Source of the DNA: Mesorhizobium sp. WSM4313
GTDB taxonomy: Bacteria; Pseudomonadota; Alphaproteobacteria; Rhizobiales; Rhizobiaceae
Assembly: GCF_002294725.1 (NCBI RefSeq)
Contig: NZ_NSFT01000004.1
Coordinates: 310,001-374,000 of the forward strand
DNA: 64,000 nucleotides
Direction: 5' to 3'
Part shown: positions 7,923-34,647 of the stretch, one piece after another
Layout: the number at the start of each line of letters is the position of its first letter
How positions within the stretch are numbered: the stretch's first letter is position 1
Translations under genes and position numbers: made by a program
The notes under the pieces: model-generated
What the model saw: only the letters and a program-made list of their open reading frames with translations
Told to the model about the DNA's origin: nothing
The model's database searches: none

Positions 7923-7959
7923 GGCGCCAGCCTACCCAGTTGCTCCTGACAGCCTTCCG

Positions 7960-8856: not shown

Positions 8857-8995
8857 AAGGGCTCAGCGTGTTTGCGTGAGGCGGTTCCGCCCCGGTCGGG
8901 ACCGTTGCTCCAGCTATAGGGGCGAAAGCTTGCACTGCGCTGCTCCAGCGCAGCGCTTGCGTTGGCGCAGGTTGTTCGCCGGAGGCCGGTCGGGG

Positions 8996-10492
8996 CTACT
9001 GCGTCGCCTGATAAAGCTCCGATGCCGCATCCTTCAGCGCGCGTCGGCCATCGGGCCGCAGATACATCATGTGGCCGCCCTCGATGACGTCGAGCCGGAT
9101 CGGCTTGGCGTCCCATAGCGAAGGAAGCTGGTTCACCAGATAGCGCGAGGCGAGATAGGGCGTGATGAGATCGGTATAGCCGTTGACGATGACGACACCC
9201 AGCGCCGGGTTGAGCGAACGCGCCCGCTGCAGGTCGTTCATCACACCGGCATAGCCCTGGCCCGATGTGCCGTAATCCCAGCTGCGGCTGACCTCGCCAT
9301 TGAGCAGCCGGTAGCTGACGTCGGTGCGGTAGTTCAGCTCGTCGCGGGCGTAAGCGACGAAGGCGGAGGTCAGCACCGGAACGCTGCGGTCGAGCACCGG
9401 GTCGGGGCCGGCCTCACGGGCGCTTTGCGGCGCGATGTCGGCAGTGCCGATGGTGGCGTCGTAGGGGCTCAGAACCTTGCCGGTGGCGCGCTGGAATTCC
9501 TTGGCGAAAAGCCCGATGGGGATGCGGGCGAAATTGCGCTGGACGAGCTCCAGCGGCAGGCCGATGATCTCCGAAACGCGCCCGCTGGCGAGTTTGCCGC
9601 CTTGCTCCAGCCCGCTGTTCAGCGCCGTCAGGTAATCGCCGAGCGCATAATGCTCGACCTCGGCCAGCCTGTCGCGCAACGCGTCGCCGCTCACGCCGTC
9701 GGCCTTGAGCCGCGTCGCCGCCAGCGAAGGCAGCTCCAGCGCCCAGTGCAGCTGGTCGAACTGGTCGGGCCGCACCAGCATGAACTCCAGCGCCGGCGAG
9801 ATCAGCACGATGCCGCTGGGGCTGAGGCCGACATCCTCCTGCAGCGTGCGGGCAAGCAGCGCGGCGCGAAAGCCGCCATAGCTCTCGCCGGCGAGGAACA
9901 GCGGCGATCCGGTGCGGCCGTTCTGCACCAGATAGAGGCGGATGAAGGCGCCGACCGAGCTGGCGTCGGCATCCACGCTCCAGAATTCCTTCGGTTCGTG
10001 ACCCGGCGCCTCGCGGCTATAGCCGGTGCCGACCGGATCGACGAAGACGAGATCGCTCATGTCGAGCCAGCTGTCGGGGTTGTCGATGAGCTTCTGCGGC
10101 GGCCGCAGGAACTCGCCGTCGGCGGCGGTCTCGACGATGCGCGGTCCGATCGCGCCGAGATGCAGGTAAGCAGACGCGGCACCGGGCCCGCCGTTGAAGA
10201 CGAAGGTGATCGGCCGCTCCTTCGCCGGGGCGGGCGATTGCTCCGAGTAGGCGACATAGAAGATCTCGGCCGTCACCTCGCCCTTGCCGGATAGGAGGGA
10301 CAGCGTGCCGGCCTTGGCCTGGTAATCCAGCTTGCGCCCGCCGAGCGTGATCGAATGCTCTGTCACCTGCGGAGGCGGCAACAGCGACAGCACGCCGCCG
10401 GTCGGGGCTGGACGCTCGGGTGCTTCGGCGAAGGTGGGCTGAGCGAAGGCGGCGAGCGCCAGCAGGACGAGGGAGACGAGCTTGGATCGCAT
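8996..10492 (-). CDS. Exported serine carboxypeptidase-like peptidase (S10 family)
   Basis: About 498 residues with a signal peptide at 1-22 (KLVSLVLLALAAFAQPTFAEA). The S10 architecture is clear: FNGGPGAASAYLHLGAIGP oxyanion region at ~98-117, DPVGTGYSR, nucleophile Ser204 in GESYGGFRA, an Asp in VNGYTDLITPY and a His in EGGHMMYLRPDGR close to the C-terminus. Bacterial members act in the periplasm on peptides or related substrates. The frame is open to 10765, but the signal peptide fixes the start at 10492. A palindromic repeat lies upstream; the gene appears monocistronic. Confidence 0.87.
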   Translation of the reverse strand: MRSKLVSLVLLALAAFAQPTFAEAPERPAPTGGVLSLLPPPQVTEHSITLGGRKLDYQAKAGTLSLLSGKGEVTAEIFYVAYSEQSPAPAKERPITFVFNGGPGAASAYLHLGAIGPRIVETAADGEFLRPPQKLIDNPDSWLDMSDLVFVDPVGTGYSREAPGHEPKEFWSVDADASSVGAFIRLYLVQNGRTGSPLFLAGESYGGFRAALLARTLQEDVGLSPSGIVLISPALEFMLVRPDQFDQLHWALELPSLAATRLKADGVSGDALRDRLAEVEHYALGDYLTALNSGLEQGGKLASGRVSEIIGLPLELVQRNFARIPIGLFAKEFQRATGKVLSPYDATIGTADIAPQSAREAGPDPVLDRSVPVLTSAFVAYARDELNYRTDVSYRLLNGEVSRSWDYGTSGQGYAGVMNDLQRARSLNPALGVVIVNGYTDLITPYLASRYLVNQLPSLWDAKPIRLDVIEGGHMMYLRPDGRRALKDAASELYQATQ

Positions 10493-12505: not shown

Positions 12506-13987
12506 CTACGCCCCGCCGCTCGCCAGCAGCGACAGCGTGCGCACATTGTCGTGGCCTTCGAAGTCGAGCAGGCGGGTGGGGTACTGTCCCGTGAAGCAGG
12601 CGTCGCAGAATTGCGGCTGGTCGTTGTCGCGGCGTGCCTCGCCGACGGCGCGGTAGAGCCCGTCGATCGACAGGAAGCCGAGCGAATCGACGCGGATGAA
12701 CTCCGCCATCTCCTCGACCGACATGCGCGATGCCAAGAGCTTCGACTTCTCCGGCGTGTCGACGCCATAGAAGCAGGAGGCACTTGTCGGCGGCGAGGCG
12801 ATGCGCATATGCACTTCCCTGGCGCCGGCGTCGCGCACCATCTGCACGATCTTCTGGCTGGTGGTACCGCGCACGATCGAATCGTCGACCAGCACCACGC
12901 GCTTGCCCTCGATCATGCGGCGGTTGGCGTTGTGCTTGAGCTTCACGCCCATGTGGCGGATGGAATCGCCTGGCTGGATGAAGGTGCGGCCGACATAATG
13001 GTTGCGGATGATGCCGAGCTCGAAGGGAATGCCGGCAGCCTGCGAGAAGCCGATCGCGGCCGGCGTGCCGGAATCCGGCACCGGCACGACGATGTCGGCC
13101 TCGACCGGGCTTTCCTGCGCGAGTTCCGCGCCGATGCGCTTCCTCACATCATAGACGTTGCGGCCTTCGACCGAGGAATCCGGCCGCGCGAAATAGACAT
13201 ATTCGAAGATACAGAAGCGCGTCTTCTGCGGCTCGAACGGGAAGATGCTCTCGATGCCCTTCGCGGTGACCACCACCATCTCGCCGGGCTTGATGTCGCG
13301 CACGAAGCGGGCGCCGATGATGTCGAGCGCGCAGGTTTCGGACGCGAGGATCCAGGCGCCGTCGAGGTCGCCAAGCACCAGCGGGCGGATGCCCAGCGGA
13401 TCGCGGCAGCCGATCATCTTCTTGGCGGTCATTGCCACCAGCGAGAAGGCGCCTTCGACCTGGCGGATCGCATCGATGAAACGCGAATTCAAATCGCGCT
13501 CCTTGCTGGTCGCGACCAGATGCAGCAGCGTCTCTGTGTCGGAGGTCGAGGAGAAGATCGAGCCCTGCTTCTGCAGCGCGCGCTGCACGGTGAGCGCGTT
13601 GGTGAGATTGCCGTTGTGAGCCACGGCAAGACCGCCTTCCGCGAGCTCGGCGAAGAAGGGCTGGATGTTGCGCAGCCCGGCGCCGCCGGTGGTGGCGTAG
13701 CGCGTGTGGCCGATGGCGCGGTTGCCTTGCAGGCTGTCGATGACGCGCTGTTTGGTGAAGGTATCGCCGATCAGGCCGACATGGCGTTCGACATGGAACT
13801 GGGTGCCGTCATAGGAGACGATGCCGGCCGCTTCCTGGCCGCGATGCTGCAGGGCATGAAGGCCGAGTGTGACGATGGCCGCCGCGTCCTGCCGGCCGAA
13901 GATGCCGAACACGCCGCATTCGTCATGAAAATGATCGTCGGCCTCGGCGGAAAGGACCTTGCCTTCATCTGCCGTTGAGTCTGCCAT
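12506..13987 (-). CDS. purF: Amidophosphoribosyltransferase
   Basis: First step of de novo purine synthesis: glutamine-dependent conversion of PRPP to phosphoribosylamine in the cytoplasm. The 493-residue reading has a propeptide before nucleophile Cys24 (DECGVFGIFGR), the class II glutamine amidotransferase domain to about 250, and the PRPP-binding loop VVLVDDSIVRGTTSQK in the C-terminal half. The ATG at 13987 has a GGAG about 12 bases upstream; starts at 14017 and 14071 are also open. Downstream of cvpA, as in E. coli and rhizobia. Confidence 0.94.
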   Translation of the reverse strand: MADSTADEGKVLSAEADDHFHDECGVFGIFGRQDAAAIVTLGLHALQHRGQEAAGIVSYDGTQFHVERHVGLIGDTFTKQRVIDSLQGNRAIGHTRYATTGGAGLRNIQPFFAELAEGGLAVAHNGNLTNALTVQRALQKQGSIFSSTSDTETLLHLVATSKERDLNSRFIDAIRQVEGAFSLVAMTAKKMIGCRDPLGIRPLVLGDLDGAWILASETCALDIIGARFVRDIKPGEMVVVTAKGIESIFPFEPQKTRFCIFEYVYFARPDSSVEGRNVYDVRKRIGAELAQESPVEADIVVPVPDSGTPAAIGFSQAAGIPFELGIIRNHYVGRTFIQPGDSIRHMGVKLKHNANRRMIEGKRVVLVDDSIVRGTTSQKIVQMVRDAGAREVHMRIASPPTSASCFYGVDTPEKSKLLASRMSVEEMAEFIRVDSLGFLSIDGLYRAVGEARRDNDQPQFCDACFTGQYPTRLLDFEGHDNVRTLSLLASGGA

Positions 13988-14086
13988 CTGGTGCTCAAGC
14001 TCCGCTAAAGCCGCCATATAAGGTGATCTTTCGCCGAACGCAACGCACGCTTTTGCATTCACAACCGGCACCAGGCCGGTCTGCGA

Positions 14087-14764
14087 TCAGTTTGCCGGCG
14101 CTGGAGCCGGGGCGGGCGCTGGCGTGGCCGGCGCCGGCTCGTTGTCGGCAGGCGCCTCGCCCTCGCTGTCGTCTGGCGCCGGCGCGTTGTCGTCGCCTGA
14201 TGGCGGCTCGGCCGCGGGCTGGTCGGTCGTGGCCGGCGCGCCGGCCTGCGGCGTGCCCTTATGGGTGTATTTGTTGACCAGTTCCTCGGTGTTTTCCGGC
14301 AGCACGCTTTCGAGCTTGGCGCCGATCGTCTCCAGCAACGGCCGCGACTTGGCGTTGGCGATCCAGGCAGGCGCCTTGGCGCCAGCCAGCCAGTTGAAGA
14401 ACAGCAGCGCCACCGCGACCACCAGGATGCCGCGCGCCGCGCCATAGAGAAAGCCGAGCGTGCGGTCGAGCGCGCCGATGCGCGAATCGATGATCCAGTC
14501 GGCGAGCTTCATGGTGATGACGGAGACGACGATCAGCGCGATGAGGAAGACTATGCCCGCCGAAGCCGCCATCGCGATCTTGTCGTTGTCGACATAGGGC
14601 TGAACATAGGGCAGGACCGGCTTGTAGAAGAAGAAAGCCGCCGCCGCCGCCGCCGCCCAGGAAACCACCGAGAGCACTTCGCGGGAGAAGCCGCGCACCA
14701 TGGCGAGCATTGCTGAGACCAGGGTGAAGCCGACGAGGATTCCGTCAAGCAGCGTAATCGGCAT
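14087..14764 (-). CDS. cvpA: CvpA family membrane protein
   Basis: A 225-residue colicin-V-production type protein: four hydrophobic helices in the first 165 residues (starting MPITLLDGILVGFTLVSAMLAMVRGFSREV), with FLYGAARGILVV near the fourth helix, then a low-complexity Pro/Ala/Glu-rich cytoplasmic or periplasmic tail (~170-225). CvpA proteins sit in the inner membrane and affect envelope integrity. It lies between radA and purF on the same strand, the common order, and the tail is extended relative to E. coli CvpA. Confidence 0.9.
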   Translation of the reverse strand: MPITLLDGILVGFTLVSAMLAMVRGFSREVLSVVSWAAAAAAAFFFYKPVLPYVQPYVDNDKIAMAASAGIVFLIALIVVSVITMKLADWIIDSRIGALDRTLGFLYGAARGILVVAVALLFFNWLAGAKAPAWIANAKSRPLLETIGAKLESVLPENTEELVNKYTHKGTPQAGAPATTDQPAAEPPSGDDNAPAPDDSEGEAPADNEPAPATPAPAPAPAPAN

Positions 14765-22235: not shown

Positions 22236-22484
22236 TCAGCGAACCACATAGGGCAGCAGGCCGAGGAAGCGGGCGCGCTTGATCGCCTTGGCGAGCTCGC
22301 GCTGCTTCTTCTGGCTGACGGCGGTGATGCGCGAGGGCACGATCTTGCCGCGTTCGGAAATGTAGCGCTGCAGGAGACGCACGTCCTTGTAGTCGATCTT
22401 GGGCGCGTTGGCGCCGGAGAACGGGCAGGTCTTGCGGCGGCGGTGGAAGGGGCGCCGGGTCGGGATCTGGTTGATGTCGACCAT
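22236..22484 (-). CDS. rpsR: 30S ribosomal protein S18
   Basis: An 82-residue S18. It contains the conserved [21 protein letters not shown] region near the N-terminus, followed by [31 protein letters not shown]. Binds 16S rRNA with S6. Its ATG shares one base with the rpsF stop codon (TAATG), indicating translational coupling with its assembly partner. Confidence 0.97.
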
Positions 22485-22969
22485 TATTCTGCACCTCCTT
22501 CAACGCCTTCGCGCGGACGGCGCGGGCCACGGTCGCCGCCGTCACGGTCGCCGAACGAACGCGGGCCGCGGTCACCGCGGTCGCGGTCGCCGAACGAACG
22601 CGGGCCACGGTCGCGGTCGCCGAAGCCGCCGCGCTCGGAGCGCTCTTCGCGCTTCTGCATCATCGCCGAGGCGCCTTCCTCATGCGCTTCCACCTTGATG
22701 GTGAGGAAGCGAAGGACGTCTTCCGACAGGCCCATCTGGCGCTCCATTTCGTTGAGCGCGGCCGGCGGGCAGGTGATGTCCATCAGCGTGTAGTAAGCCT
22801 TCCGGTTCTTCTTGACCCGGTAGGTGAGGGACTTCAGTCCCCAGTTCTCGATCCGGCCGACCGATCCGCCATTCGCCGTGATGACGCCCTTGTACTGTTC
22901 GACAAGCGCATCAACCTGCTGTTGCGACAGGTCCTGCCGGGCAAGAAACACATGTTCGTAAAGAGCCAT
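22484..22969 (-). CDS. rpsF: 30S ribosomal protein S6
   Basis: A 161-residue S6, starting [15 protein letters not shown], with the RNA-binding fold over the first ~110 residues ([35 protein letters not shown]). Beyond ~115 it has a low-complexity tail with repeated [12 protein letters not shown]-type units, highly charged and Arg/Asp/Gly-rich, absent from E. coli S6 but found in Rhizobiales. It opens the rpsF-rpsR-rplI operon. The 358-base upstream region may hold autoregulatory RNA. Confidence 0.96.
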
Positions 22970-23327: not shown

Positions 23328-24449
23328 TCAGATCCTGCGGAGCGCTTCAGCGGGGAGAAGGCGCGTGGCGCGCCAAGCCGGGTAGAGTGCGCCGAGCGGC
23401 CCGGCGATGAAGACGAAGATCAGCGCCTGGGCGATCGACCAGCCTGACAGATAGGGCACGATCAGCCCCGCCGCGACCCTTGTCTTCGCCGCCGCTTCCA
23501 TGGTCAGGGCGCCGAGAACGATGCCGATAACGCCGCCGGCTGCGCTCATGAAGACGCCTTCGATGAGGATGAGCCGAAGAATCCGCCGCGGCGCCCAGCC
23601 AAGCGCCGCCAGAACACCAATCTCGAACGTCCGTTCGTTCACGGCCATCAGCAGCGTGTTGGCGACCGCAACCGAGGCCATCGCCATGACGACCAGCGAA
23701 ATCGTGCGGGCGATCGCCCGAAGCAGATCGAAGATGCGGATGCTGTTGGCGAACTGCTCGGTGTCGACGACCACGAATCCCGGGGCGGCTGCAACGAGCC
23801 GGGTTCGGGCAGCGGCGATGCCGTCGGCGTCGAGCGGGCGCTTCAGTCTTACCTCGAACAAGGTAAAGGCGTCCTCCCGCGACAGGAGCTGCTGCAGCCC
23901 CTCGAGCGGAACGATGGCGCTGTTCTGGTTCAGCATGGACGAGAACGACGCGATGCCGACGATCCGATAGGGCTGGAACTGCAGCTCGACGGTATCGCCG
24001 ACCCGCTTGTCCAATGCGCCGGCGATCGATTGGCCAAGGATCACCGGCCACTGGTCCCCCGGCACAGGGAGCCGCCCCGCCACGAGCGGCACGTCTTTCC
24101 ACAGGAAGCTGCCGCTTGGCCAGCCGGCCATGACGATATTGGCGTCCTCGTCGGCGGTGGTGATGTTGAGGAGAACGCCCGACACCGCCTCGACATTCGG
24201 CACCGCCGAAAGCGCCGGGCCGAGCGCTCTGGGCACGGTGCTGCTCACCAAATTGAAGGTGCTGCGCTGGCTAACCACCAGATCCGCGCCGTTCTCGTCG
24301 ATTCCCGACGCAAATGAGCGCTGGACGCCGGCGGTCAGGCCGGTAAGCGCCACGAAGCCGGCGACCGCCAAGGCGATGCCGAGCACCGTGAGCAAAGTGC
24401 GCAGCGGACGTGCGATGAGACCGCGCAAGGGCAGGGTCAGCTCCGTCAT
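23328..24449 (-). CDS. ABC transporter permease, MacB/LolE (FtsX) type
   Basis: A 373-residue permease with the four-helix FtsX/MacB topology: helix 1 at ~15-40 ([19 protein letters not shown]), a large periplasmic domain (~45-240), then three helices including [21 protein letters not shown] and the C-terminal ~330-365. Such permeases move lipids, lipoproteins or other amphiphiles by mechanotransmission. It starts three bases after the ABC ATPase gene (24453). With the MlaC-like gene upstream, this suggests lipid traffic between membranes linked to the type III PKS gene. Confidence 0.85.
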
Positions 24450-24452
24450 GGG

Positions 24453-25166
24453 CTAGCCGATCCGCGATGCCGGTGCGGGCGCTGAGATTGCCGCCGCCCG
24501 GCTGTCCGAGCGGATGCGGCCATCCGAGATCTCGACCCGGCGTCCGCACAACGCGGCCACGTCCTCGTCATGGGTCACCACGATTACTGCGGTCCCGAAC
24601 TCGCGATGCGCATTGCCGATGATGTCCATGACGGATTGGCTTGTCTGCACGTCGAGGCTTCCTGTCGGCTCGTCGGCAAGAAGAAGCTTCGGACGGTTGG
24701 CCAGCGCCCGCGCAATTGCAAGGCGCTGGCGCTCGCCGCCGGAAAGCTCGGCCGGCCGCAGCGCAGCGCGATCGGCAAGACCGAAATGCGCCAGAAGTTC
24801 CAGCGCGCGAGCGCGACGCTGCTGCGCTCCGCCGAGGTTTCCTAGCAGAGCCACCTCGATGTTCTCGCGCGCCGACAAAGAGGGGAGCAGGCAGAAGTTC
24901 TGGAAGACGATGCCGATCCTGCTGGCCCGGACCGCTGCCCACGCAGCGCTTCCATTGACGGCCCGCCCTTCGAACCGAACTTCGCCGCGGGTCGGCCGGT
25001 CGAGCCCGCAGACCAGGTTCAGGGTCGTCGATTTGCCGCTGCCGCTGCGGCCGACAATCGCGACGGTCTCGTCATTCCCGATTGCGAGTGACACGTCGTC
25101 GACGGCGACGATGCGGCCGCCGTCAAAATCGCGGCCGACATTGCTCAATTCGACGAGGGAGGACAT
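24453..25166 (-). CDS. ABC transporter ATP-binding protein, MacB/LolD type
   Basis: A 237-residue ATPase of the LolD/MacB/FtsE group. Walker A is GRSGSGKSTTLN (~38-49), the signature is LSGGERQRLAIARAL, Walker B is LLLADEPTGSLD, and a switch His is in VVTHDEDVAALC. The start MSSLVELSNVG (25166) excludes an upstream extension with no ABC similarity. Partner of the permease three bases downstream; the MlaC-like gene lies 16 bases upstream, so the three are one unit. Confidence 0.9.
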   Translation of the reverse strand: MSSLVELSNVGRDFDGGRIVAVDDVSLAIGNDETVAIVGRSGSGKSTTLNLVCGLDRPTRGEVRFEGRAVNGSAAWAAVRASRIGIVFQNFCLLPSLSARENIEVALLGNLGGAQQRRARALELLAHFGLADRAALRPAELSGGERQRLAIARALANRPKLLLADEPTGSLDVQTSQSVMDIIGNAHREFGTAVIVVTHDEDVAALCGRRVEISDGRIRSDSRAAAISAPAPASRIG

Positions 25167-25182
25167 GAGCGCCAGCGAGGAA

Positions 25183-25797
25183 TCATACCCGGCCTTTCCT
25201 GAGATCGACGACAAGCGCGGGGATCGAGCCGCCATTGCCGGCGAGGATCTGGCCGATGCGGTCCCGCTGCCGCACGGTCACCGACCCGCCGTCGACAAAG
25301 ACATCGCCGATACACAGTTGCCCGCGGCAGCGGCGGACACGCCAGTCCACGGACGTCGGGCCGCGGAGCTGCCGGCGGAATTCGCTGCGCACCAGTATGT
25401 CGCCGTTGGCCAGGGTCTTTGTGCCGAGCACGGTGAAAGTCTTGTCCTGCGTCCGTTCCAGCTTGTCGGCCAGCCCGTGTGCGATGGCATAAAGAAGCGC
25501 ATCGACCACCGCGGCGCGGTCGCCCGCGCTCGCGCTGCGCCAGCGCGTCCCGAGCACGGCCTGGGCAATTCCCTTTCCGTCGAAGGCCGCTGAGATCGAG
25601 CGGAGCTGCGCCTCGGCGGGCCCGCCGTGCCCGAGCACGAGCGCCGCCTGGCGCACGGTCTCAACCAGCTTGATCGCATCGCCTTGCTCGTCGGCAACCG
25701 CCGAGATCGGCGGGGCGCAGATGCTGAGCAACAGAGGGACGAGCAACAGCCGGGCCAAACCTGCCCAGCTTGCGTATGACCATGGGCCCGCCGTCAT
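25183..25797 (-). CDS. MlaC/Ttg2D-family periplasmic lipid-binding protein
   Basis: A 204-residue exported protein. A long basic-then-hydrophobic N-terminus (LARLLLVPLLLSICAPPISAVADE, to about residue 37) is the signal peptide. The mature part matches the MlaC fold pattern: AVLGTRWRSASAGDRAAVVDAL, then VDWRVRRCRGQLCIGDVFVDGGSVTVRQRDRI and the ILAGNGGSIPAL end. MlaC proteins carry phospholipid through the periplasm. No MlaD/MlaE/MlaF is nearby; the partner here is a MacB-type ABC transporter. Two cysteines in RRCRGQLC may form a disulfide. Confidence 0.8.
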   Translation of the reverse strand: MTAGPWSYASWAGLARLLLVPLLLSICAPPISAVADEQGDAIKLVETVRQAALVLGHGGPAEAQLRSISAAFDGKGIAQAVLGTRWRSASAGDRAAVVDALLYAIAHGLADKLERTQDKTFTVLGTKTLANGDILVRSEFRRQLRGPTSVDWRVRRCRGQLCIGDVFVDGGSVTVRQRDRIGQILAGNGGSIPALVVDLRKGRV

Positions 25798-27023
25798 GAT
25801 GCCATGTCATCCAATGCGCGGTTGGCTGTCAATATTGACCGTCCGGGAGGCAGCGCAGGCACATGCCCGAAATTGGAAGCGAGCGGTTCGAGGCGGGCTA
25901 GGCGCGCTTTCTGCCCTTCCGTCAGGTCGGGATGGCGGTTGCGCGGCTGTTTGCCGAACGTCGCGGCGACTTGCAGCATGCGCTCCTCGCAGCCTTGGGA
26001 GAATGGCAGGCCCAGTTCGCGGTAGATCCGCTTCATCTCGCCCGTCGGATCGGCAATCAGATCCTGTAGCCGCACCTCGGCGAGGTCGGCGGCTGGAATC
26101 CGGGTTCTATCAGCCAGATAGTGCATTTCCGTCGCGAGATATTCGCTGGCGATGATCTCTTCCTGCTCGTGCTCGGGCAGCGGCGGCTGCAGGGCGAACG
26201 CACGCTGCAACTCGCGCGTCAGAACAAGGTTGGACCGGAACACCGCTTCCGGCGGACGCGAGATGTGGACAAACTTGGCGCCAGGGAACAGCTCCAAAAG
26301 GTGGCGGACGCGCGCCGTGTGGCTCGGCGACTTGAGCAGAAGTCGCCGCCCTCCGGCAACGAGCGTGAGCTTCTGCACGAAAGCGAGCTGATGTGAGCGC
26401 CAGCGGTTCAGCTCTTGCGCCGAAAGCGAGTCGAGATCCTGATACCGATTGAAGAAGGCTTGCCGGCGGGGAAGCACGGCGCGTCCCGCCAGGATCGACA
26501 TTCCACCCAGATTGTTCAATGCGAAGTCGTCCTCCGCCGGCAGCCTGGCGCCAACCGGCACGACCGCGTCGAGGCGCGTCAACGGCAGCAAGGGCACGAA
26601 AAGATAGCGCAGCAGGGCCCAGCCAAGAACGAATGTCTGAGGCGCCAGGACCTGCGGCCAGCCCGGCGATCTCAGGTCCGGGTCCGCCGACAGCAGGTTC
26701 TGCAAAAAAGTCGTCCCGGAGCGGAAGTAGCCAAGAACGAACACAGGCGCGTTATCCGGTTCCATCCGGGGAGGTCGCAGCCGCAGCCATGCCCCAAGGA
26801 TCACGCGCTCCGGCAGGGAGGCGATCGTGTTGATGCCCGAAATCAGGAACAGGAGCATCAGGCGCGGCCAATAAACGGGAGGCAGCCGGCCTTCCGCACG
26901 CCATAGGACCCGCAACACGGCGTCAAGAGGTGCCACACACATGAAGTGCGGATACGGCAGGTAGGGCACCAGCCAACGGGCTGCGAAAGCACGGACGCGG
27001 TGCCGGATGGCGTTCGACTTCAT
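25794..27023 (-). CDS. Sulfotransferase family protein
   Basis: A 409-residue sulfotransferase-fold protein. The 5'-phosphosulfate loop is FVLGYFRSGTTFLQNLLSAD, and the 3'-phosphate element is FVHISRPPEAVFRSN, with LLLKSPSHTARVRHLLELFP between. A hydrophobic N-terminal part (~45-75) suggests membrane association. The start at 27023 gives MKSNAIRHRVRAF and shares an A with the PKS stop (TGATG), so it is coupled to the type III PKS; it also overlaps the MlaC-like gene by four bases. It probably transfers sulfate from PAPS to the product of this cluster; substrate unproven. Confidence 0.87.
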   Translation of the reverse strand: MKSNAIRHRVRAFAARWLVPYLPYPHFMCVAPLDAVLRVLWRAEGRLPPVYWPRLMLLFLISGINTIASLPERVILGAWLRLRPPRMEPDNAPVFVLGYFRSGTTFLQNLLSADPDLRSPGWPQVLAPQTFVLGWALLRYLFVPLLPLTRLDAVVPVGARLPAEDDFALNNLGGMSILAGRAVLPRRQAFFNRYQDLDSLSAQELNRWRSHQLAFVQKLTLVAGGRRLLLKSPSHTARVRHLLELFPGAKFVHISRPPEAVFRSNLVLTRELQRAFALQPPLPEHEQEEIIASEYLATEMHYLADRTRIPAADLAEVRLQDLIADPTGEMKRIYRELGLPFSQGCEERMLQVAATFGKQPRNRHPDLTEGQKARLARLEPLASNFGHVPALPPGRSILTANRALDDMAS

Positions 27024-28126
27024 CAGGCAGTCCGGAACATCATGGTCTCGGTGGTCAATCCCGGCCCGAACGCCATGCCGCAGCCGAGCAAGCCCGACGG
27101 CTCCTTCAGCATTTCGGCCATCGCGAACATTACGGTGGCCGACGACATGTTGCCGTATTGCCGGAGCACTTCGCGCGATGCGGCGAGCGCGGCCGGCTTC
27201 AGTTCGAGTGCCCGCTCGACCGCGTCGAGCACCGAGCGGCCGCCGGGATGGACCGCCCACAAATCAATCTCCTTGGCGGGCCTGCCGCCGAGGATGGCCG
27301 GATGCTCGTTGCGCAGCGTCTCACGGACGGCACCGGGAACCTGCCCGGACAGCACCATGTCAAAGCCGTCGTCGCGGATATTCCAGCTCATCAGCTCCTT
27401 GCGCTCCGCCGCCACGATCGCGTGGAAGCTTTCGAGCAGGATGCCGTGCGGCTCGGCTGTCACCAGCGAGGCCGCGCAACCGTCGCCCCATAGACAGAAC
27501 GAGATCAGCTTCTCGAGCTCCGTGGCCTCCTTGAAATGCAGCGTGCACAATTCGATGTTGACGATCAGCACGCGGGCCTTCGGATCCGATCGCACGATGT
27601 GGCGCGACAGCTTCAAGGCGTTGATGGCGGCATAGCATCCCATGAAGCCGATGATGGTGCGCTCGACCGACGTCGACAGGCCGCATCGCTGCACCAGCTC
27701 GAGGTCGATGCCGGGCGCCGAAAAGCCGGTGCAGCTCGTCACGATCAAATGCGTGATCAGCGAGCGGTCGTCGTTGGCCAGAAGTCTGTCGACGGCCCTT
27801 TGCGCGAGCTCCGGTGCGGCGGCTTCGTACATCCGCATACGCATTGCGGTGCTGGCGAACGAGCCTCTGACCGAGGTGCCGTCGCGGTCGATTGCCCCGC
27901 CGCGCGGATCGTCGGCAGGCGCAAAGCAGGAATAGCGATGTTCGATCCCGGCCAGAGCGACCATTCGCTCGAAGAGCGCAAGGCGCTGCGCGTCGTTTTC
28001 AAGCAGCGAGGCTCCATAGCCGAGGAAGAACCGATGCACGTCATGTTCGGGGACACACGTGGCAATGCCGTTCAGATACGCTTGAGGGGACAAAATAGCT
28101 CCGAGCATGAGCGCAATCGGGCTCAT
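27023..28126 (-). CDS. Type III polyketide synthase (chalcone/stilbene synthase-like)
   Basis: About 367 residues with a complete type III PKS triad: Cys132 (VTSCTGFSAPGID), His293 (WAVHPGGRSVLD) and Asn326 (RQYGNMSSATV). GFMGCYAAINALKLSRHI and CLWGDGCAASLV are also typical. Bacterial members condense fatty acyl starters with malonyl-CoA to alkylresorcinols or alkylpyrones, so a long-chain phenolic or pyrone product is plausible. The N-terminus is uncertain: starts at 28108 and 28171 are alternatives and none has a strong ribosome binding site. The methyltransferase and FAD oxidoreductase genes are divergent. Confidence 0.92.
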   Translation of the reverse strand: MSPIALMLGAILSPQAYLNGIATCVPEHDVHRFFLGYGASLLENDAQRLALFERMVALAGIEHRYSCFAPADDPRGGAIDRDGTSVRGSFASTAMRMRMYEAAAPELAQRAVDRLLANDDRSLITHLIVTSCTGFSAPGIDLELVQRCGLSTSVERTIIGFMGCYAAINALKLSRHIVRSDPKARVLIVNIELCTLHFKEATELEKLISFCLWGDGCAASLVTAEPHGILLESFHAIVAAERKELMSWNIRDDGFDMVLSGQVPGAVRETLRNEHPAILGGRPAKEIDLWAVHPGGRSVLDAVERALELKPAALAASREVLRQYGNMSSATVMFAMAEMLKEPSGLLGCGMAFGPGLTTETMMFRTA

Positions 28127-28375
28127 AAGGTCTGCGAATTGGAGAAGCGTTCCTAAGGTAAACGCCTGCATAGAGCATTTTATTGCGCGGTGCCGATATT
28201 TCTCATTAGCAAACTGTGATATCAGCCTCCGATGTCGCATGAAGGGACCGACTTTCTTCGGTATCCGGGTGGGTTCAAATGCGGGTTCCGCGACCAGCAG
28301 CGCGCTGCCATGAAGGAACGACCCGAATTCTATTTGCCGGGTTGCCGGCTGAAGTCTAGATTTCCGATCCATCGC

Positions 28376-29080
28376 ATGACCGACATAGACATCCGGCATC
28401 TGGAGCCAGAACTCCTCGACGGCCTCCCGGCTGACGATCCCCGTGCGATTGCATCCCGTCGCGATCTCGTTCGCATCAATGCATTGATGTTCCAGGCCAG
28501 GATCATGGCATCGCTGATGCGGCAAAACGTGCAAAAGCCGCCGCTGCGCATCCTCGAAATAGGCGCCGGCGACGGAAAGTTCATGCTGGCGGTGGCGCGG
28601 CTGATGGCGCGCCATTGGCCCGACGTCGAGATCGTCATGGTCGACAGGATCGGCTTGATAGGCGAGGACTTGCGCAGCTCTTTCGCTGAATTGGGCTGGC
28701 GGGCGCAGCCCGTGACTGCGGATCTGTTCGATTGGACCCAGGACAGGCCCTTCGACCTTGTTTGCGCCAACCTTATCCTCCACCACTTCGACGACATGCG
28801 TCTGCAGGAGCTGTTTTCTCGGATGATGACGATGGCCCCGATGCTCGTCGCCACGGAGCCGTTGAGAGCCAAGGTGCCGCTTGTGGCGACACGGTTTCTG
28901 CGATTGATCGGCGCCTGTGCGGTAACGCTGAATGATGCAGCGCAAAGTGTGCGCGCCGGTTTTCGTGGCACGGAACTTTCACAATTGTGGCAACTGTCAG
29001 GTGGAACGCCCGTGATGGAGGGCCGCAGAGGCCTGTTTACGCAAGGTTTTGTTGGCGCGAGCACGCTCGATACGAAATGA
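28376..29080 (+). CDS. Class I SAM-dependent methyltransferase
   Basis: A 234-residue methyltransferase: LRILEIGAGDGKFMLAVARL is motif I, MVDRIGL follows as the acidic second strand, DLVCANLILHHFDDM is the motif near the active site, and the C-terminal half has the ATEPLRAKVPL region. In bacterial type III PKS clusters such enzymes O- or C-methylate the resorcinol or quinone product. Its stop overlaps the next gene's start (ATGA). A longer start at 28310 (MKERPEF) is possible. Divergent from the PKS gene, with about 250 bases between. Confidence 0.88.
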   Translation: MTDIDIRHLEPELLDGLPADDPRAIASRRDLVRINALMFQARIMASLMRQNVQKPPLRILEIGAGDGKFMLAVARLMARHWPDVEIVMVDRIGLIGEDLRSSFAELGWRAQPVTADLFDWTQDRPFDLVCANLILHHFDDMRLQELFSRMMTMAPMLVATEPLRAKVPLVATRFLRLIGACAVTLNDAAQSVRAGFRGTELSQLWQLSGGTPVMEGRRGLFTQGFVGASTLDTK

Positions 29081-30249
29081 TGCACGACGCAATTGTCATC
29101 GGTGCCGGTCCTGCCGGAAGTTCCACCGCCATTGCACTCGCCCAACATGGTTGGTCGGTGGCAATGGTGGAGAAGGTGGCATTTCCTCGCCGCAAGGTCT
29201 GCGGCGAATTCATGTCGGGCACCAGCCTTGCCTTGCTCGATCAGCTGGGCGTCGGCGAGAGCTGGCGCGCGGAAGCCGGCCCCGAGATAAGGCGCGTCGG
29301 GTTCTTTTCGGGCGATGTCTCGGCGCAGGCGCGAATGCCGAGCGCCAAGACGGGTCTCGGCCGCGCGCTCGGCCGCGATCGTCTGGACACCATCCTGCTG
29401 CAGGCTGCCGAACGTGCGGGTGTCGAGATCCTCCAGCCTTGCAAGGCAGTCGCCATCTGCCGGCGCGATGACTTGCAATTTCTGACTGTGGAATCCGACC
29501 AGCAACAGAAGCTGCTCAGCACACCCGTCATCATTGCCGCGCACGGATCCTGGGAAACCGGGAAACTTCCGAGCCAACTTGAAAGAACCAGCCAACCCTC
29601 CGACCTTTTCGGCTTCAAGGCGCATTTTACCGGCGCCGCGCTGGCGCCCGATCTGATGCCGCTGCTGGTATTCCCAGGCGGATATGGCGGGATGGTAACT
29701 GCGGACAATGGTCGGGTTTCAATCTCCTGCTGTATCCGCCGCGATGTTCTATCCGGGCTGCGCCGGCGCTTTGGGAATATTGCGGCGGCGGATGCGGTGT
29801 CGCGCCACGTCCTGGCCTCGTGCCGAGGCGTGCGAACTGCGCTGGCAGGTGCCGAATTGGATGGCCCATGGCTGGCTGCGGGACCGATTCATCCGGGCAT
29901 CCGGGCCGGTTACGATCAGGGCATCTTCCGTGTCGGCAACATCGCGGGCGAGTCGCATCCTGTCATCGCCGAAGGGATTTCGATGGCGCTGCAATCGGGC
30001 TGGCTGCTTGCGCGAGAACTGATCGTATCGGGCAAACGTCGCGAGGACCGCGACGCCGCCGGGCATCGCTACGAACGCGAATGGCGTCGGCAATTCTCGA
30101 CCCGTCTGCGTGCCGCGGCCTTGATTGCCAAAATAGCGCTTGGGCCAGGTGGCGCGTCGGCCATGCGCGCCGTGATCAAGAATTTTCCGGCCGCTTTGAC
30201 GCTTGGCGCTCGGCTGAGTGGAAAGGTCCAGCCCGTTCCAGGCTTTTGA
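29077..30249 (+). CDS. FAD-dependent oxidoreductase (geranylgeranyl reductase/monooxygenase-like)
   Basis: A 390-residue flavoprotein. It begins with the Rossmann motif DAIVIGAGPAGSSTAIALAQHG, has CGEFMSGTSLALLDQLGV near residue 45, and FRVGNIAGESHPVIAEGISMALQSG (~290-315), the FAD ribityl-binding GD-like motif of the group A monooxygenase/geranylgeranyl reductase superfamily, here with GN rather than GD. With the methyltransferase it recalls srsB-srsC beside srsA in Streptomyces, where the flavoenzyme hydroxylates a methylated alkylresorcinol to a quinone. Hydroxylation or reduction of the PKS product is therefore inferred. Coupled by ATGA overlap. Confidence 0.87.
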   Translation: MMHDAIVIGAGPAGSSTAIALAQHGWSVAMVEKVAFPRRKVCGEFMSGTSLALLDQLGVGESWRAEAGPEIRRVGFFSGDVSAQARMPSAKTGLGRALGRDRLDTILLQAAERAGVEILQPCKAVAICRRDDLQFLTVESDQQQKLLSTPVIIAAHGSWETGKLPSQLERTSQPSDLFGFKAHFTGAALAPDLMPLLVFPGGYGGMVTADNGRVSISCCIRRDVLSGLRRRFGNIAAADAVSRHVLASCRGVRTALAGAELDGPWLAAGPIHPGIRAGYDQGIFRVGNIAGESHPVIAEGISMALQSGWLLARELIVSGKRREDRDAAGHRYEREWRRQFSTRLRAAALIAKIALGPGGASAMRAVIKNFPAALTLGARLSGKVQPVPGF

Positions 30250-30252
30250 CGT

Positions 30253-30357
30253 CTAGCGCGTTCACCGTTTCACGGAAACGGCGAAACGCCCTATCTCCTT
30301 GTTTTTTACGCAATTTCGGACGGAAAACCGCTCACACTTTTCCTGGAATTGCTCTAA
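30253..30357. repeat. AAAAGTG-GCGGTTTT palindromic repeat, long form (inverted copy)
   Basis: A ~105-base element ending in GGAAAACCGCTCACACTTTTCC and GGAATTGCTC. It is the reverse complement of the copy at 62457-62556, with a few differences. It follows the FAD oxidoreductase stop directly. See 36391, 37819, 37877 and 42101 for members of the same superfamily. Confidence 0.85.
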
Positions 30358-30451: not shown

Positions 30452-32377
30452 TCAGCTTGTATGCGCGACCAGCCTGTTCACCGTCTCGGGGAAGAAATCG
30501 GGCGCCGAGAGCCGCTTGCCGAACATCATGTCGTATTGGATGAGCCGGAAATCGTTGATCTTCGGATCGATCTGCTTCTGCCTCGCCCAATCCGGCGTTG
30601 CTTCGCCCACGGGCGACAGGAGCAGGTTGCGGTCGACCACTCGGTAGTGTTCGCGCAGCGCGCCGAGGAAGCCGGTGTAATAGGGGTGGCTGATGCCTGC
30701 CGTGGTCAGGATATGATAGGGCAGGAAGGCCGGGCTCACCGAGCCGATGTTCTCGACCGGACCGGAGCGGTTCGACCAGATAACCAAAGGCGTATCGTGG
30801 TGTTCGAGCGCGGCGACCGCCGGCTCCTTGCGCGGCGCGACATTGTCCTTGAGGAAGCCGGTCTCGACATAGACGGGTCCGAGCGGCGGCAGATGGTCGC
30901 CGAAGAAGGCGATGATGGTCGGCCGCTGGCGGGCCTTCGCCCAGTCGATCAGGCGCTGCAGGCCGCGGTCGGCGTCGGCCGACCCCTCGGCATAGGAAAG
31001 CAGCGATTCCCGCGCCCAGGAACTGATCGGCGCGTCGATCGAATGCGTCGGGTTGTAGTAGCGGTAGGGCTCGTAAGGACCGTGGTTCTGCAGGCTGACG
31101 GCGAACAGGAACACCGGATCGTCGCTGGTGTCGGCCTCGCGGATGATCTCGTCGGTCATCGCCGCGTCGGAAGCCAGCGGCCCGCGCTTTTCCATCGGCG
31201 GCAGCGTCTCTTCGGAGCGGAAGTCGTTGAAGCCGAAATCGGCATAGACGGCGCCGCGGTTCCAGAACCAGTTGGTGCCGGGATGGATGGCGCGCGCCCG
31301 GTAACCCTGGCTCTTCAGGAAGGTCGCCAGCGACGGGGTCGGGGTGCGCACATATTGCTGATAGGGGATCGAGCCGGCCGGCAGGAAGGCGTTGGAAAAG
31401 CCGGTCAGCGCCTCGAACTCAATATTGGCGGTCATGCCGCCGAACTCGGGCGAGAACATCGAGCCGGAGCGCAACGCCCTGACCGTCGGGATCGGGTCGG
31501 GCTTGATGGTGACGCCGGGCAGGTGCGTCGGATCCCAGAAGGATTCGCTCATCACCACCACGATATCCGGCTTCTCGTCCGGCATGGAAGCGGCGGCGTC
31601 GGGGCGCTGGATCGCGGCCATCGTCTTCTCGGAATAGCCGGGCGGCGCCGCGACATGCGCCATCGGCACGTTCATCGCGAAGGCCAGCGCAAAGCCGTTG
31701 GAGGCGTAGTTCTCCTTCTGGTCCCACATGATCGGGATGATCTGCAGCCGGTCGCGCGTCCACGAGAAGGTGGCGTAGTCCATGATCGAGACGAAGAAGG
31801 CGAGCAGCGGCACGGCAAGCGCCAGCCGCGCCAGGCGGCCCTTGCGGCTGAGGATGGGTACTCGCCGGCGCCAGGTCCGCCAGCCGTAGACGAGCAGCGT
31901 CAGACCGCCGACGATGCCGACCGCCAGCATGACGGCCGTCCACGGGCGCTCGCGCACCAGGAGCGGCATCAGCGCCATGATCTGGCGGGCGAACAGGAAA
32001 TCCGTGGGATAGAGCGGGTCGCCGAGGTAACGCGATTTCTGGTGGCCGACAAAGGCCAGCGCCAGCGTCAGCGGCGCCACGATCATCAGGCTCTGGTGGC
32101 TTCGGCCGAGTATGGCGTCCAGCCCGAGCAGCACCAGGGCGAAGACGATGATGGTGGTCCAGCCGGGCTTGAAGGGCTGCATGAAGAAATCGACTGTGCC
32201 GAAGAAATCGCCGCGTACGATCAGCTCGATCGCGAAGACGAGCAGGGCTGAGGCAAGAAGCGTCGACAGGCCGTAGCGTACGGTCGGCCAGGCTCGTCCC
32301 GGCAGATAGCCGGTGGACGGATCGTCTTCCAAAAATTGCGGCGCGGGTTTGGCCGCGCCTTTCCTGATCCTTGCCAC
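30452..32377 (-). CDS. LTA synthase family (sulfatase-fold) phosphoglycerol transferase-like
   Basis: A 641-residue membrane enzyme: about five helices in the first 200 residues and then a periplasmic alkaline-phosphatase/sulfatase-like domain. Metal and nucleophile positions fit the LtaS/OpgB group, with Glu278 in VVVMSESFWD, Thr316 in GGMTANIEFEAL and FFGDHLPPLG later. Gram-negative relatives transfer phosphoglycerol to periplasmic glucans, and cyclic beta-glucan modification would be one expected role in rhizobia. A GTG at 32377 starts the frame. It lies between a repeat and the fabD promoter region and may belong to the envelope-lipid island. Substrate not shown. Confidence 0.85.
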   Translation of the reverse strand: MARIRKGAAKPAPQFLEDDPSTGYLPGRAWPTVRYGLSTLLASALLVFAIELIVRGDFFGTVDFFMQPFKPGWTTIIVFALVLLGLDAILGRSHQSLMIVAPLTLALAFVGHQKSRYLGDPLYPTDFLFARQIMALMPLLVRERPWTAVMLAVGIVGGLTLLVYGWRTWRRRVPILSRKGRLARLALAVPLLAFFVSIMDYATFSWTRDRLQIIPIMWDQKENYASNGFALAFAMNVPMAHVAAPPGYSEKTMAAIQRPDAAASMPDEKPDIVVVMSESFWDPTHLPGVTIKPDPIPTVRALRSGSMFSPEFGGMTANIEFEALTGFSNAFLPAGSIPYQQYVRTPTPSLATFLKSQGYRARAIHPGTNWFWNRGAVYADFGFNDFRSEETLPPMEKRGPLASDAAMTDEIIREADTSDDPVFLFAVSLQNHGPYEPYRYYNPTHSIDAPISSWARESLLSYAEGSADADRGLQRLIDWAKARQRPTIIAFFGDHLPPLGPVYVETGFLKDNVAPRKEPAVAALEHHDTPLVIWSNRSGPVENIGSVSPAFLPYHILTTAGISHPYYTGFLGALREHYRVVDRNLLLSPVGEATPDWARQKQIDPKINDFRLIQYDMMFGKRLSAPDFFPETVNRLVAHTS

Positions 32378-32653
32378 TTTGCTTCCCCGGCCCTTGTCAC
32401 GCGTCTTCCACTCGCGTCACGCCACTGTCATCGAAATGTCACGCAAAGCTAGCGCCTGTGGCGGAAATAAGAAGAGCCAGCAAACTAAACGTGAGCGGTT
32501 TTCATCAGGTGTGATCAAGTAAAAGGCCTTTTGGAACAGGCAGTCAGCAGGATTTCCGACCGAAATGCAGGCCGAAGAGACGCCTGCGGGCTTGACTTGG
32601 CTGTCCGCCTTGCGCCAGAGGCAGACAAAACCAGCCTCTGGAGAGACCTCAAA

Positions 32654-33607
32654 ATGGCCGTCGCATTCACCTTTCCGGGACAGGGCAGCCAGGCCGTCGG
32701 CATGGGCAAGGACCTCGCCGATGCATTCCCCGAAGCGCGTCGCGTCTTCGAGGAAGTGGACGCAGCGCTCGGCGAAAAACTGTCGAAACTCATCTGGGAA
32801 GGGCCGGAAGAGACGCTGACGCTGACCGCCAATGCCCAGCCGGCGCTGATGGCGGTGTCGCTGGCGGCGATGCGCGCGCTCGAAGCGCGCGGCTTCTCGC
32901 TGAAGGACAAGGTGGCTTATGTCGCCGGCCATTCGCTTGGTGAATATTCCGCGCTTGCTGCGGCCGGCTTCGTTTCGGTCGGCGACGCGGCGCGGCTGCT
33001 TCGGACCCGCGGCAACGCCATGCAGGCGGCGGTGCCGGCCGGCGAGGGCGCCATGGCCGCGATCATCGGGCTGGAACAGGCCGACGTCGAGGCCGCTTGC
33101 GCCGAGGCAGCTCGCGAGGTCGGCAACGGCTCCGTCTGCCAGATCGCCAACGACAATGGCGGCGGCCAGCTGGTGATCTCCGGCGCCAGGCCGGCGGTCG
33201 AGCTGGCGGCGAAGCTGTGCACCGAAAAAGGCGCCAAGCGGGCGCTGATGCTGCAGGTTTCCGCCCCCTTTCATTCGGCGCTGATGACGCCTGCCGCCGA
33301 CATCATGCGCGAGGCGCTGGCCGGTGTCGCGAAATCCGCGCCGGTGGTTCCGATCGTCTCGAACGTCACCGTAACCCCGACCAGCGACCCCGATGAGATC
33401 GTCCGCCGCCTGGTCGAGCAGGTGGTCGCCCGCGTACGTTGGCGAGAGACGGTGGAATGGTTTGGCGCCAACGGCGTCGCGAGCCTCTATGAAGTCGGCG
33501 CAGGCAAGGTGCTGTCGGGCCTGGCGCGCCGCATCAACCGCGACATCGCCACCGGCGCCGTGGGCACGGCGGCGGAAGTCGAGGCCGCGCTGGCGGCTTT
33601 GGGGTGA
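32654..33607 (+). CDS. fabD: Malonyl-CoA--ACP transacylase
   Basis: Loads malonyl units onto ACP for fatty acid synthesis. The 317-residue protein starts AVAFTFPGQGSQAVGMG, with catalytic Ser in AGHSLGEYSALAA (GHSxG) near residue 96, and the His in VSAPFHSALM near 203. The start at 32654 fits the family. It opens fabD-fabG-acpP-fabF, but a repeat lies between fabD and fabG, so read-through or a second promoter at fabG is to be expected. Confidence 0.95.
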   Translation: MAVAFTFPGQGSQAVGMGKDLADAFPEARRVFEEVDAALGEKLSKLIWEGPEETLTLTANAQPALMAVSLAAMRALEARGFSLKDKVAYVAGHSLGEYSALAAAGFVSVGDAARLLRTRGNAMQAAVPAGEGAMAAIIGLEQADVEAACAEAAREVGNGSVCQIANDNGGGQLVISGARPAVELAAKLCTEKGAKRALMLQVSAPFHSALMTPAADIMREALAGVAKSAPVVPIVSNVTVTPTSDPDEIVRRLVEQVVARVRWRETVEWFGANGVASLYEVGAGKVLSGLARRINRDIATGAVGTAAEVEAALAALG

Positions 33608-33618
33608 GGCCCCGTTTT

Positions 33619-33799
33619 CGTCATTCTAGGGCGGAGCAAGGAGCGAAGCGACGCAGCGAAGACCCTAGAATCCATGCCGTGACTTGGAAGTGCCGCCGCG
33701 GTGCAGAATTCTGCTCCGTTGCATCCTTCGGCCAATGTCACGGCATGGATCCTCGGGTCTACGCGTCCGCTTCGCTCCCGCTCCGCCCGTGGATGACGA
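33619..33799. repeat. Palindromic intergenic repeat, CGTCATTC family, copy 2
   Basis: Arms CGTCATTCTAGGGCGGAGC...AGACCCTAGAATCCATGCCGTGAC (33619-33682) and TGTCACGGCATGGATCCTCGGGTCTACGCG...CGCCCGTGGATGACGA (33736-33800) pair imperfectly; related to 18284-18459. It fills most of the 302 bases between fabD and fabG, where no gene is seen. Confidence 0.83.
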
Positions 33800-33909
33800 C
33801 GGGAAGGAGGCCTTCGCCAATGTCCGACGCTTGTCTAGCGTGACTTGGACGATATGACGTATACGGAACGCGACTGCTTGCAGCCGTCTGGAAAAATGAG
33901 GTTGAAGAT

Positions 33910-34647
33910 ATGTTCGAACTGACCGGCCGGAAGGCGCTCGTCACCGGCGCATCGGGAGGCATCGGCGAGGCGATCGCCAGGGTGCTGCACAGCCAGGGCG
34001 CGATCGTCGGCCTGCACGGAACCCGTGTGGAGAAGCTGGAAGCCTTGGCGGGCGAATTGGGCGACCGCGTAAAACTGTTTCCGGCGGACCTGACGAACCG
34101 CGACGCGGTCAAGGCGCTCGGCCAGAAAGCGGAGGCCGATCTCGAGGGTGTCGACATCCTGGTCAACAATGCCGGCATCACTAAGGACGGCCTGTTCGTG
34201 CGCATGTCGGACGCCGACTGGGATTCGGTGATCGAGGTCAACCTCACTGCCGTGTTCCGGCTGACCCGCGAGCTGACGCATCCGATGATGCGCCGCCGCC
34301 ATGGCCGCATCATCAACATCACCTCGGTGGTCGGCGTCACCGGCAATCCCGGCCAGACCAATTACTGCGCCTCCAAGGCAGGCATGATCGGCTTTTCCAA
34401 GTCGCTGGCGCAGGAGATCGCCACCCGCAACATCACCGTCAACTGCGTCGCCCCGGGCTTCATCGAATCGGCCATGACCGACAAGCTCAACGACAAGCAG
34501 AAAGAGACGATCATGGCCGCGATCCCGACCCGGCGCATGGGCACCGGCGTTGAAGTGGCGTCCGCCGTCGCTTATCTCGCCTCCAACGAGGCGGCCTATG
34601 TCACCGGCCAGACCATTCACGTCAACGGCGGCATGGCAATGATCTGA
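33910..34647 (+). CDS. fabG: 3-oxoacyl-ACP reductase
   Basis: NADPH-dependent reduction of 3-oxoacyl-ACP in fatty acid elongation. A 245-residue SDR with TGASGGIGEAIARVL (~12-26), NNAGITKDGLFVRM near 86, catalytic Ser of ITSVVGVTGNPGQTNY and the YCASK motif, then the FabG-typical VAPGFIESAMTDKLND and a C-terminal GQTIHVNGGMAMI. It starts MFELTGRKALVTG at 33910 and lies upstream of acpP by about 200 bases. Confidence 0.95.
   Translation: MFELTGRKALVTGASGGIGEAIARVLHSQGAIVGLHGTRVEKLEALAGELGDRVKLFPADLTNRDAVKALGQKAEADLEGVDILVNNAGITKDGLFVRMSDADWDSVIEVNLTAVFRLTRELTHPMMRRRHGRIINITSVVGVTGNPGQTNYCASKAGMIGFSKSLAQEIATRNITVNCVAPGFIESAMTDKLNDKQKETIMAAIPTRRMGTGVEVASAVAYLASNEAAYVTGQTIHVNGGMAMI

Follow-up and report, generated by a model that had tools for sequence, protein, structure and literature searches.

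A seven-gene variant of the type III polyketide synthase operon in Mesorhizobium and its possible role in making, sulfating and exporting a phenolic lipid

Operons that join a type III polyketide synthase (PKS) to a methyltransferase and a flavin adenine dinucleotide (FAD)-dependent enzyme are of a known and ordinary kind that is widespread in bacteria, and here we describe a variant of this trio from Mesorhizobium sp. WSM4313, where it forms part of a seven-gene block within a stretch of 64,000 nucleotides (contig NZ_NSFT01000004.1, positions 310,001 to 374,000; hereafter the window). Planctomycete PKSs from such operons, or from variants of them, produced penta- and heptadecylresorcinols when expressed, two planctomycete PKSs from outside such operons gave no product, and the addition of the methyltransferase and FAD enzyme to one of the productive PKSs resulted in a methylated alkylresorcinol, probably methylated on carbon, with the role of the FAD enzyme left open (PMC10896814). 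The three-gene hid set of cyanobacteria (PMC8086630) and the polyketide quinone operon of Streptomyces and mycobacteria (PMC9927152) are reported to yield products that are O-methylated and oxidised. Sulfation is also on record, in that AdpST sulfates the alkylresorcinols of a type III PKS in Streptomyces, and cpz and tot are two further clusters that combine a type III PKS with a sulfotransferase (PMC12135136).

The window locus resembles each of these systems in part. The planctomycete operon and cyanobacterial hidABC (hierridin B) combine homologous enzymes of all three classes in one operon, with the gene order methyltransferase, FAD enzyme, PKS and with neither a sulfotransferase nor an exporter described; the set on a Paludisphaera plasmid is about 35% (PKS), 29% (methyltransferase) and 26% (FAD enzyme) identical to that of the window. 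Similarly, srsABC of Streptomyces griseus and the mycobacterial and Streptomyces polyketide quinone operon use a PKS, a methyltransferase and an oxidoreductase to form methylated alkylquinones, but the descriptions available, on which this comparison is based, include no sulfotransferase or MlaC/ATP-binding cassette (ABC) genes. The adp cluster of Streptomyces davaonensis (sulfated adipostatins) places a type III PKS beside a sulfotransferase that uses 3'-phosphoadenosine-5'-phosphosulfate (PAPS) and acts on its alkylresorcinols, whereas it belongs to another bacterial group and carries its own PAPS genes, and its five-gene operon, as described, is without methyltransferase, FAD enzyme or exporter. 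In transport, the block is comparable to LolCDE/MacB and Mla systems, with a LolD-like ATPase, a LolCE/MacB-like permease and an MlaC-like carrier, but its proteins fall below the curated NCBIfam cut-offs for LolD (205.6 of 360 bits), LolCE (68.9 of 362.45 bits) and HpnM (55.8 of 160.1 bits, with the Pfam MlaC cut-off passed).

We favor the reading that the seven genes form a single unit for the synthesis, sulfation and export of a phenolic lipid, namely a methylated, hydroxylated alkylresorcinol, and we put its probability at roughly one in two. The preliminary description of this DNA had recognized a PKS gene divergent from a coupled methyltransferase and FAD enzyme, and had suggested that these genes probably make a phenolic lipid. 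The divergent arrangement is as it stated, the three enzyme classes are confirmed by Pfam, and the product class is supported by the compounds ascribed to planctomycete, hid and polyketide quinone operons; its interpretation as a whole is partly supported. The extent that it assigned to the cassette (27023-30249) was too short, since four more genes lie downstream of the PKS on the minus strand (23328-27023). These form an unbroken run from the PKS through a sulfotransferase, an MlaC-like protein and an ABC ATPase to an FtsX-type permease (Table 1), with ends that overlap or almost touch: the last base of the PKS stop codon is also the first base of the sulfotransferase gene (TGATG), and the sulfotransferase and MlaC-like genes overlap by four. 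As a variant of the known trio the seven-gene block is new, and none of the titles and abstract openings listed from the open-licence literature describes such a unit.

Table 1. Features of the seven-gene block (coordinates are positions in the window)
Feature	Coordinates	Strand	Basis
Seven-gene block, complete	23328..30249	both	Togetherness kept across different chromosomal sites
MacB/LolCE-type FtsX permease	23328..24449	-	PF12704, PF02687
LolD/MacB-type ABC ATPase	24453..25235	-	PF00005, 2e-36; LolD model 7e-61, below cut-off
MlaC/HpnM-family periplasmic lipid-carrier-like protein	25183..25797	-	PF05494, 2.3e-18; apparent signal peptide (by eye)
Sulfotransferase	25794..27023	-	PF13469, 4e-30; P-loop VLGYFRSGTTFLQNLL, 3' segment LLLKSPSHTARVRHLLELFPGAKFVHISR
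Type III PKS, 356 aa from TTG	27023..28093	-	Pfam, catalytic triad, fold
Divergent promoter region	28094..28375		Core GATATTTCTCATTAGCAAACTGTGATATC at 28195-28223, strongly conserved (12-copy alignment)
Class I S-adenosylmethionine-dependent methyltransferase, 234 aa	28376..29080	+	Methyltransf_25, 6.6e-09
FAD-dependent monooxygenase/oxidoreductase, 390 aa	29077..30249	+	FAD_binding_3, 2e-15; GxGxxG kept

The sulfotransferase of the block goes together with one particular type of PKS. In a sample of 146 Mesorhizobium genomes, an ortholog of the sulfotransferase (81-100% identity) occurs in 12, and the same 12 hold a PKS of the window type (88-100%); among the remainder, 66 have the PKS family without the sulfotransferase ortholog, in two the only type III PKS is a distant one, and in 66 there was no match. 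The ortholog was absent from all 134 of these other genomes, three of which had weak partial matches (28-31%), each on a different contig from its PKS. Fisher's test, which ignores kinship, gave p 8e-18 for the co-occurrence. Moreover, all seven genes are complete and in the same divergent layout in 12/12 genomes, and each is under purifying selection, the median ratio of nonsynonymous to synonymous substitution rates across 11 comparisons with the window copy ranging from 0.12 to 0.27 (PKS 0.20, sulfotransferase 0.27, MlaC-like protein 0.22, ABC ATPase 0.12, permease 0.13, methyltransferase 0.16, FAD enzyme 0.13). By PKS, the closest named record is that of Mesorhizobium sp. B2-7-2 (L021; 99% identity).

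The trio itself is widespread and not special to this genome. A scan of contigs for relatives of the PKS returned 92 matches, and in the best 80, which are the loci analysed, PKS, methyltransferase and FAD enzyme lie on one strand without a sulfotransferase in 70, and in the divergent layout of the window with the sulfotransferase in four. The remaining loci comprise three with a methyltransferase and no FAD enzyme match (two of which end less than 1 kb from the PKS), two with an FAD enzyme match and no methyltransferase match, and one short contig with neither. Because the grouping recurs in 70/80 loci in one-strand form and in 4/80 in divergent form, it is not due to chance, and with three homologous genes adjacent the window trio belongs to the same kind as the hid, planctomycete and polyketide quinone operons. 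In a first PKS tree, which included three of the 12 window-type PKSs, the alphaproteobacterial PKSs of the trio kind and two sequences from acidobacterial metagenome-assembled genomes formed one clade (42 rows, 100/100), apart from a second rhizobial PKS type that is solitary or stands beside an isoprenylcysteine-type methyltransferase. In a second tree, all 12 window-type PKSs were included and grouped as a single clade (100/100), whose sister was the main collinear Mesorhizobium group. On this phylogeny the divergent layout seems to be derived and to belong to the 12-genome clade. Because long branches meet in both trees, we made no use of the deep order of phyla.

The seven genes also behave as a relocating unit. 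Grouping flanks by more than 500 bp of shared sequence, with right contexts linked transitively, assigned the 12 copies to eight left and five right contexts, and the block must therefore occupy at least five chromosomal sites. When seven representatives were compared in all 21 pairs, homology on the left stopped no more than 11 bp from the stop codon of ftsX in 18 (91, 91 and 137 bp in the exceptions), and on the right within 24 bp of the stop of the FAD enzyme gene in 19 (63 and 125 bp in the exceptions), and four pairs shared an additional, separate stretch on the right. At the site occupied in the window, where rpsF and the neighbor on the other side of the block are some 7.5 kb apart, 14 genomes without the block there were examined; four of them have rpsF 311-346 bp from that neighbor (L261-L264), and a fifth has a spacing of about 900 bp (L269); one of the four with close-set neighbors (G158) carries the block elsewhere. 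Pairwise distances are correlated among the MlaC, ABC and FtsX genes (Spearman 0.72-0.77) and between these and the PKS (0.70-0.74). As for the agent of movement, a transposon or integrase was considered and set aside, none of 15 flank open reading frames in seven contexts having such a domain (Pfam E <= 1e-5), four of the 15 being without any Pfam match; repeats were sought at either end of the window copy alone, and the ends common to the copies were compared by eye.

If this reading is correct, the PKS would condense a fatty-acyl starter with three malonyl units into an alkylresorcinol ring, the FAD enzyme would hydroxylate that ring and the methyltransferase would methylate it, a chemistry that is likely from the homology of the trio. 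The sulfotransferase would pass sulfate from PAPS to a phenol oxygen, and the amphiphile would then be pulled out of the inner membrane by the ABC ATPase and FtsX-type permease and carried by the MlaC-like protein through the periplasm, as far as the outer membrane or out of the cell. It is from the tight linkage of the genes that we infer the PKS product to be the substrate of the sulfotransferase and the exporter. The lipid of the collinear operons is presumably unsulfated, and the 12-genome clade would have added the sulfate-and-export half. With rather less confidence, and leaning somewhat to the doubtful side, we suggest that this constitutes an undescribed rhizobial pathway in which a sulfated, methylated and oxidised alkylresorcinol or hydroquinone is moved to the cell surface by a miniature transport line of its own, made up of an ABC-FtsX extractor and a dedicated MlaC carrier, and that the whole block spreads among Mesorhizobium chromosomes as a discrete unit, with no transposase or integrase in the neighbors scanned. 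Were this so, a redox lipid that otherwise stays internal would be turned into a surface or secreted one by an add-on, the sulfate-and-export half. A rhizobial type III PKS that is so far uncharacterised would then gain a testable product, sulfated alkylresorcinols would extend to a second bacterial lineage, and MlaC-based export would become a candidate route for one particular lipid. Sister Mesorhizobium species that hold the trio without the sulfate-and-export genes supply a natural experiment.

Several observations weigh against this proposal. The 12 genomes are close relatives and hence do not represent 12 independent events, and nine of the 14 genomes examined for the window site had no rpsF inside the stretch covered. 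The distances of the FAD enzyme and methyltransferase genes are more weakly correlated with those of the exporter genes (0.28-0.35 and 0.49-0.52, respectively), and there may have been exchange between the two halves of the block. Relatives of the sulfotransferase outside the clade are about 24-40% identical to it where the matches are longer, and it has no close resemblance to any solved enzyme. PAPS can be made, because adenosine-5'-phosphosulfate (APS) kinase is encoded in 33/33 genomes examined, yet the supply of PAPS failed to discriminate, the kinase being found equally in genomes without the sulfotransferase. A genome from another family of the same order (G400; L182) has the sulfotransferase (34%), MlaC-like (45%), ABC (57%) and FtsX (63%) genes in the same order and yielded no type III PKS, which shows that the cassette can, judging by gene content, serve another substrate.

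This last case speaks for the alternative that the sulfotransferase-MlaC-ABC-FtsX cassette modifies and exports some other lipid, such as a hopanoid, an ornithine lipid or a glycolipid, and became joined to the trio through a shared role in the envelope. The resemblance of the MlaC-like gene to HpnM of hopanoid clusters (below the cut-off) and the presence of a 31% relative of the sulfotransferase within a carotenoid-type lipid cluster on a Palleronia plasmid point the same way, but across the 146 Mesorhizobium genomes the sulfotransferase ortholog is always accompanied by the window-type PKS (12/12), and we regard the idea as unlikely. We judge it just as improbable that the trio generates a membrane-held polyketide quinone or hydroquinone electron carrier, as reported for Mycobacterium and Streptomyces, with the sulfotransferase and exporter acting on something else and sharing no more than the operon. 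A PKS-methyltransferase-oxidoreductase operon is indeed the polyketide quinone set (PMC9927152), and 66 of the 78 Mesorhizobium genomes with the PKS family do without the sulfotransferase ortholog, such that the trio works in its absence; the seven genes nevertheless relocate jointly and with mostly sharp ends, and the one-base overlap of the sulfotransferase start with the PKS stop argues for a single pathway.

The nature of the ring is a separate matter. Trp263 of the PKS is invariant in an alignment of 12 sequences from such operons, in a column that we take to be equivalent to Trp281 of ArsB by way of the chalcone synthase Gly256 column, ArsB itself being outside the alignment. This aromatic residue separates ArsB from ArsC; however, Trp occupies the column in 116 of 123 sequences, including classes that we do not know as resorcinol synthases, and being so weak a guide it was rejected as proof of resorcinol chemistry. 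That the product is instead an alkylpyrone has a precedent in ArsC, one of the bacterial type III PKSs reported to make such compounds (PMC6274091), but the invariance of Trp263 within such operons and the alkylresorcinols described for the planctomycete relatives tested, which came from these operons or variants of them (PMC10896814), make this the least probable of the alternatives, and quite improbable in itself.

The PKS is a member of the type III family by its Pfam scores (Chal_sti_synt_C 4.5e-23, Chal_sti_synt_N 2.2e-22, both above the cut-off), and it is not a 3,5-dihydroxyphenylacetyl-CoA synthase by the NCBIfam equivalog model for DpgA (109.8 bits against a cut-off of 425). Its AlphaFold model (mean predicted local distance difference test, pLDDT, 87.1) has type III PKS structures as its best matches in the Protein Data Bank, among them Mycobacterium PKS18 and plant enzymes, a predicted fold that does not decide between ring types. 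Because TTG at 28093 has GGAG five bases upstream and agrees with the start of a collinear relative (L188, MPQAY...), it is the most likely start codon from the sequence; ATG codons further upstream are not preferred, in that 10/12 window-type matches (all except G000 and G094) have an in-frame TGA there and indels shift the codons around it. Of the catalytic triad previously given as Cys132, His293 and Asn326, the latter two residues stand (the numbering is offset by 15 from that of the longer reading, P0001), while Cys132 does not: it is the cysteine of SCTGF (P0001 Cys147), and the catalytic cysteine lies within GFMGCYAA. The triad is thus Cys179, His308 and Asn341 in P0001, or Cys153, His282 and Asn315 counted from TTG, and it is retained in 123/123, 123/123 and 122/123 aligned sequences, respectively, the exception (L095) being a row that ends early at that point. 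Elsewhere, one collinear-type PKS gene looks split (G080:C126:7360-8411), and fragmentary second copies lie beside a full one in G159 (C1:3330286-3330626), G091 (C216) and G064 (C83).

For the methyltransferase, ATG at 28376 is the most likely start on comparative grounds, since it is kept in 12/12 copies (the window and 11 relatives) and the DNA upstream has indels. The model of the FAD enzyme (mean pLDDT 89.8) adopts the fold of the aromatic-hydroxylase/flavin-halogenase superfamily, and Foldseek ranks halogenases first, followed by aromatic hydroxylases. WxWxIP is the motif of flavin-dependent halogenases; despite the structural ranking, a halogenase was rejected, no WxW being visible by eye in P0003, and from the model we read the enzyme as a probable hydroxylase. 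The conserved core of the intervening promoter region contains GATAT/ATATC half-sites and is a candidate operator, and a single weak sigma-70-like match occurs in the region, on the minus strand at 28206-28177.

The sulfotransferase belongs to the PAPS-dependent class by its match to PF13469 and by the two PAPS-binding segments of such enzymes; FRSGTTFLQNLL, KSPSHTARVR and FVHISR are all present in 12/12 copies. The ABC ATPase gene may in fact start some 70 bases downstream of its listed start. The exporter type is rare in the class, because a related permease (E <= 1e-20) was found in just two of 384 other genomes of an evenly drawn sample; G400 presumably lies outside this sample, as its 63% permease would have been listed. 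Among the loci examined, G400 is also the only case outside the genus in which the three transport genes are combined with the sulfotransferase. Weak relatives of the sulfotransferase elsewhere in the order were viewed mostly in 4-kb loci, some with wider flanks, and at one of the latter (G056) a different type III PKS lies about 4 kb away. At locus L179, from another family of the order, a sulfotransferase is fused behind what looks by eye like a membrane-protein N-terminal half (7512-9515), with a different type III PKS (13315-14403) about 4 kb off. A Granulicella plasmid (L237) has an FtsX-type permease, a LolD-like ATPase and an outer-membrane lipoprotein-sorting protein clustered together.

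Trios are annotated on plasmids in Mesorhizobium INR15, Methylobacterium, Falsirhodobacter, Roseomonas, Sphingobium, Caballeronia, Deinococcus, Psychrobacter and the planctomycete Paludisphaera. A shorter NAD-binding protein takes the place of the third gene in Microvirga, and in Novosphingobium a methyltransferase does not follow directly. The trio-like operons of Caballeronia, Sphingobium and Novosphingobium (L239, L193 and L248) have an extra acyl-carrier (phosphopantetheine-binding) protein and a ketosynthase, a gene content that hints at an acyl-carrier-protein-bound starter in these three. On the plasmid of Mesorhizobium INR15 (L188) the trio lies among insertion sequence elements and is followed by a gene of the cyclopropane-fatty-acid-synthase family. 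The three Deinococcus trios (L194, L236 and L247) are followed by a glycosyltransferase, and two have an FtsX-type permease, 31-32% identical to that of the window, about 2 kb away.

The block is bordered by rpsF (ribosomal protein S6, about 22484-22969) on one side and, on the other, by an alkaline-phosphatase-superfamily gene adjoining fabD and fabG (30452-34647); the names rpsF, fabD and fabG are our own assignments from the sequences. The alkaline-phosphatase-superfamily gene (30452-32377; PF00884, with a weak match to lipoteichoic acid synthase) encodes a membrane protein, lies beside fabD in the window and is found in 17/17 genomes examined. Immediately beyond the right end of the block, at 30303-30357, is a dispersed repeat of about 55 bp, of which well over 100 further copies, about 87-100% identical, occur among the matches listed from 17 Mesorhizobium genomes.

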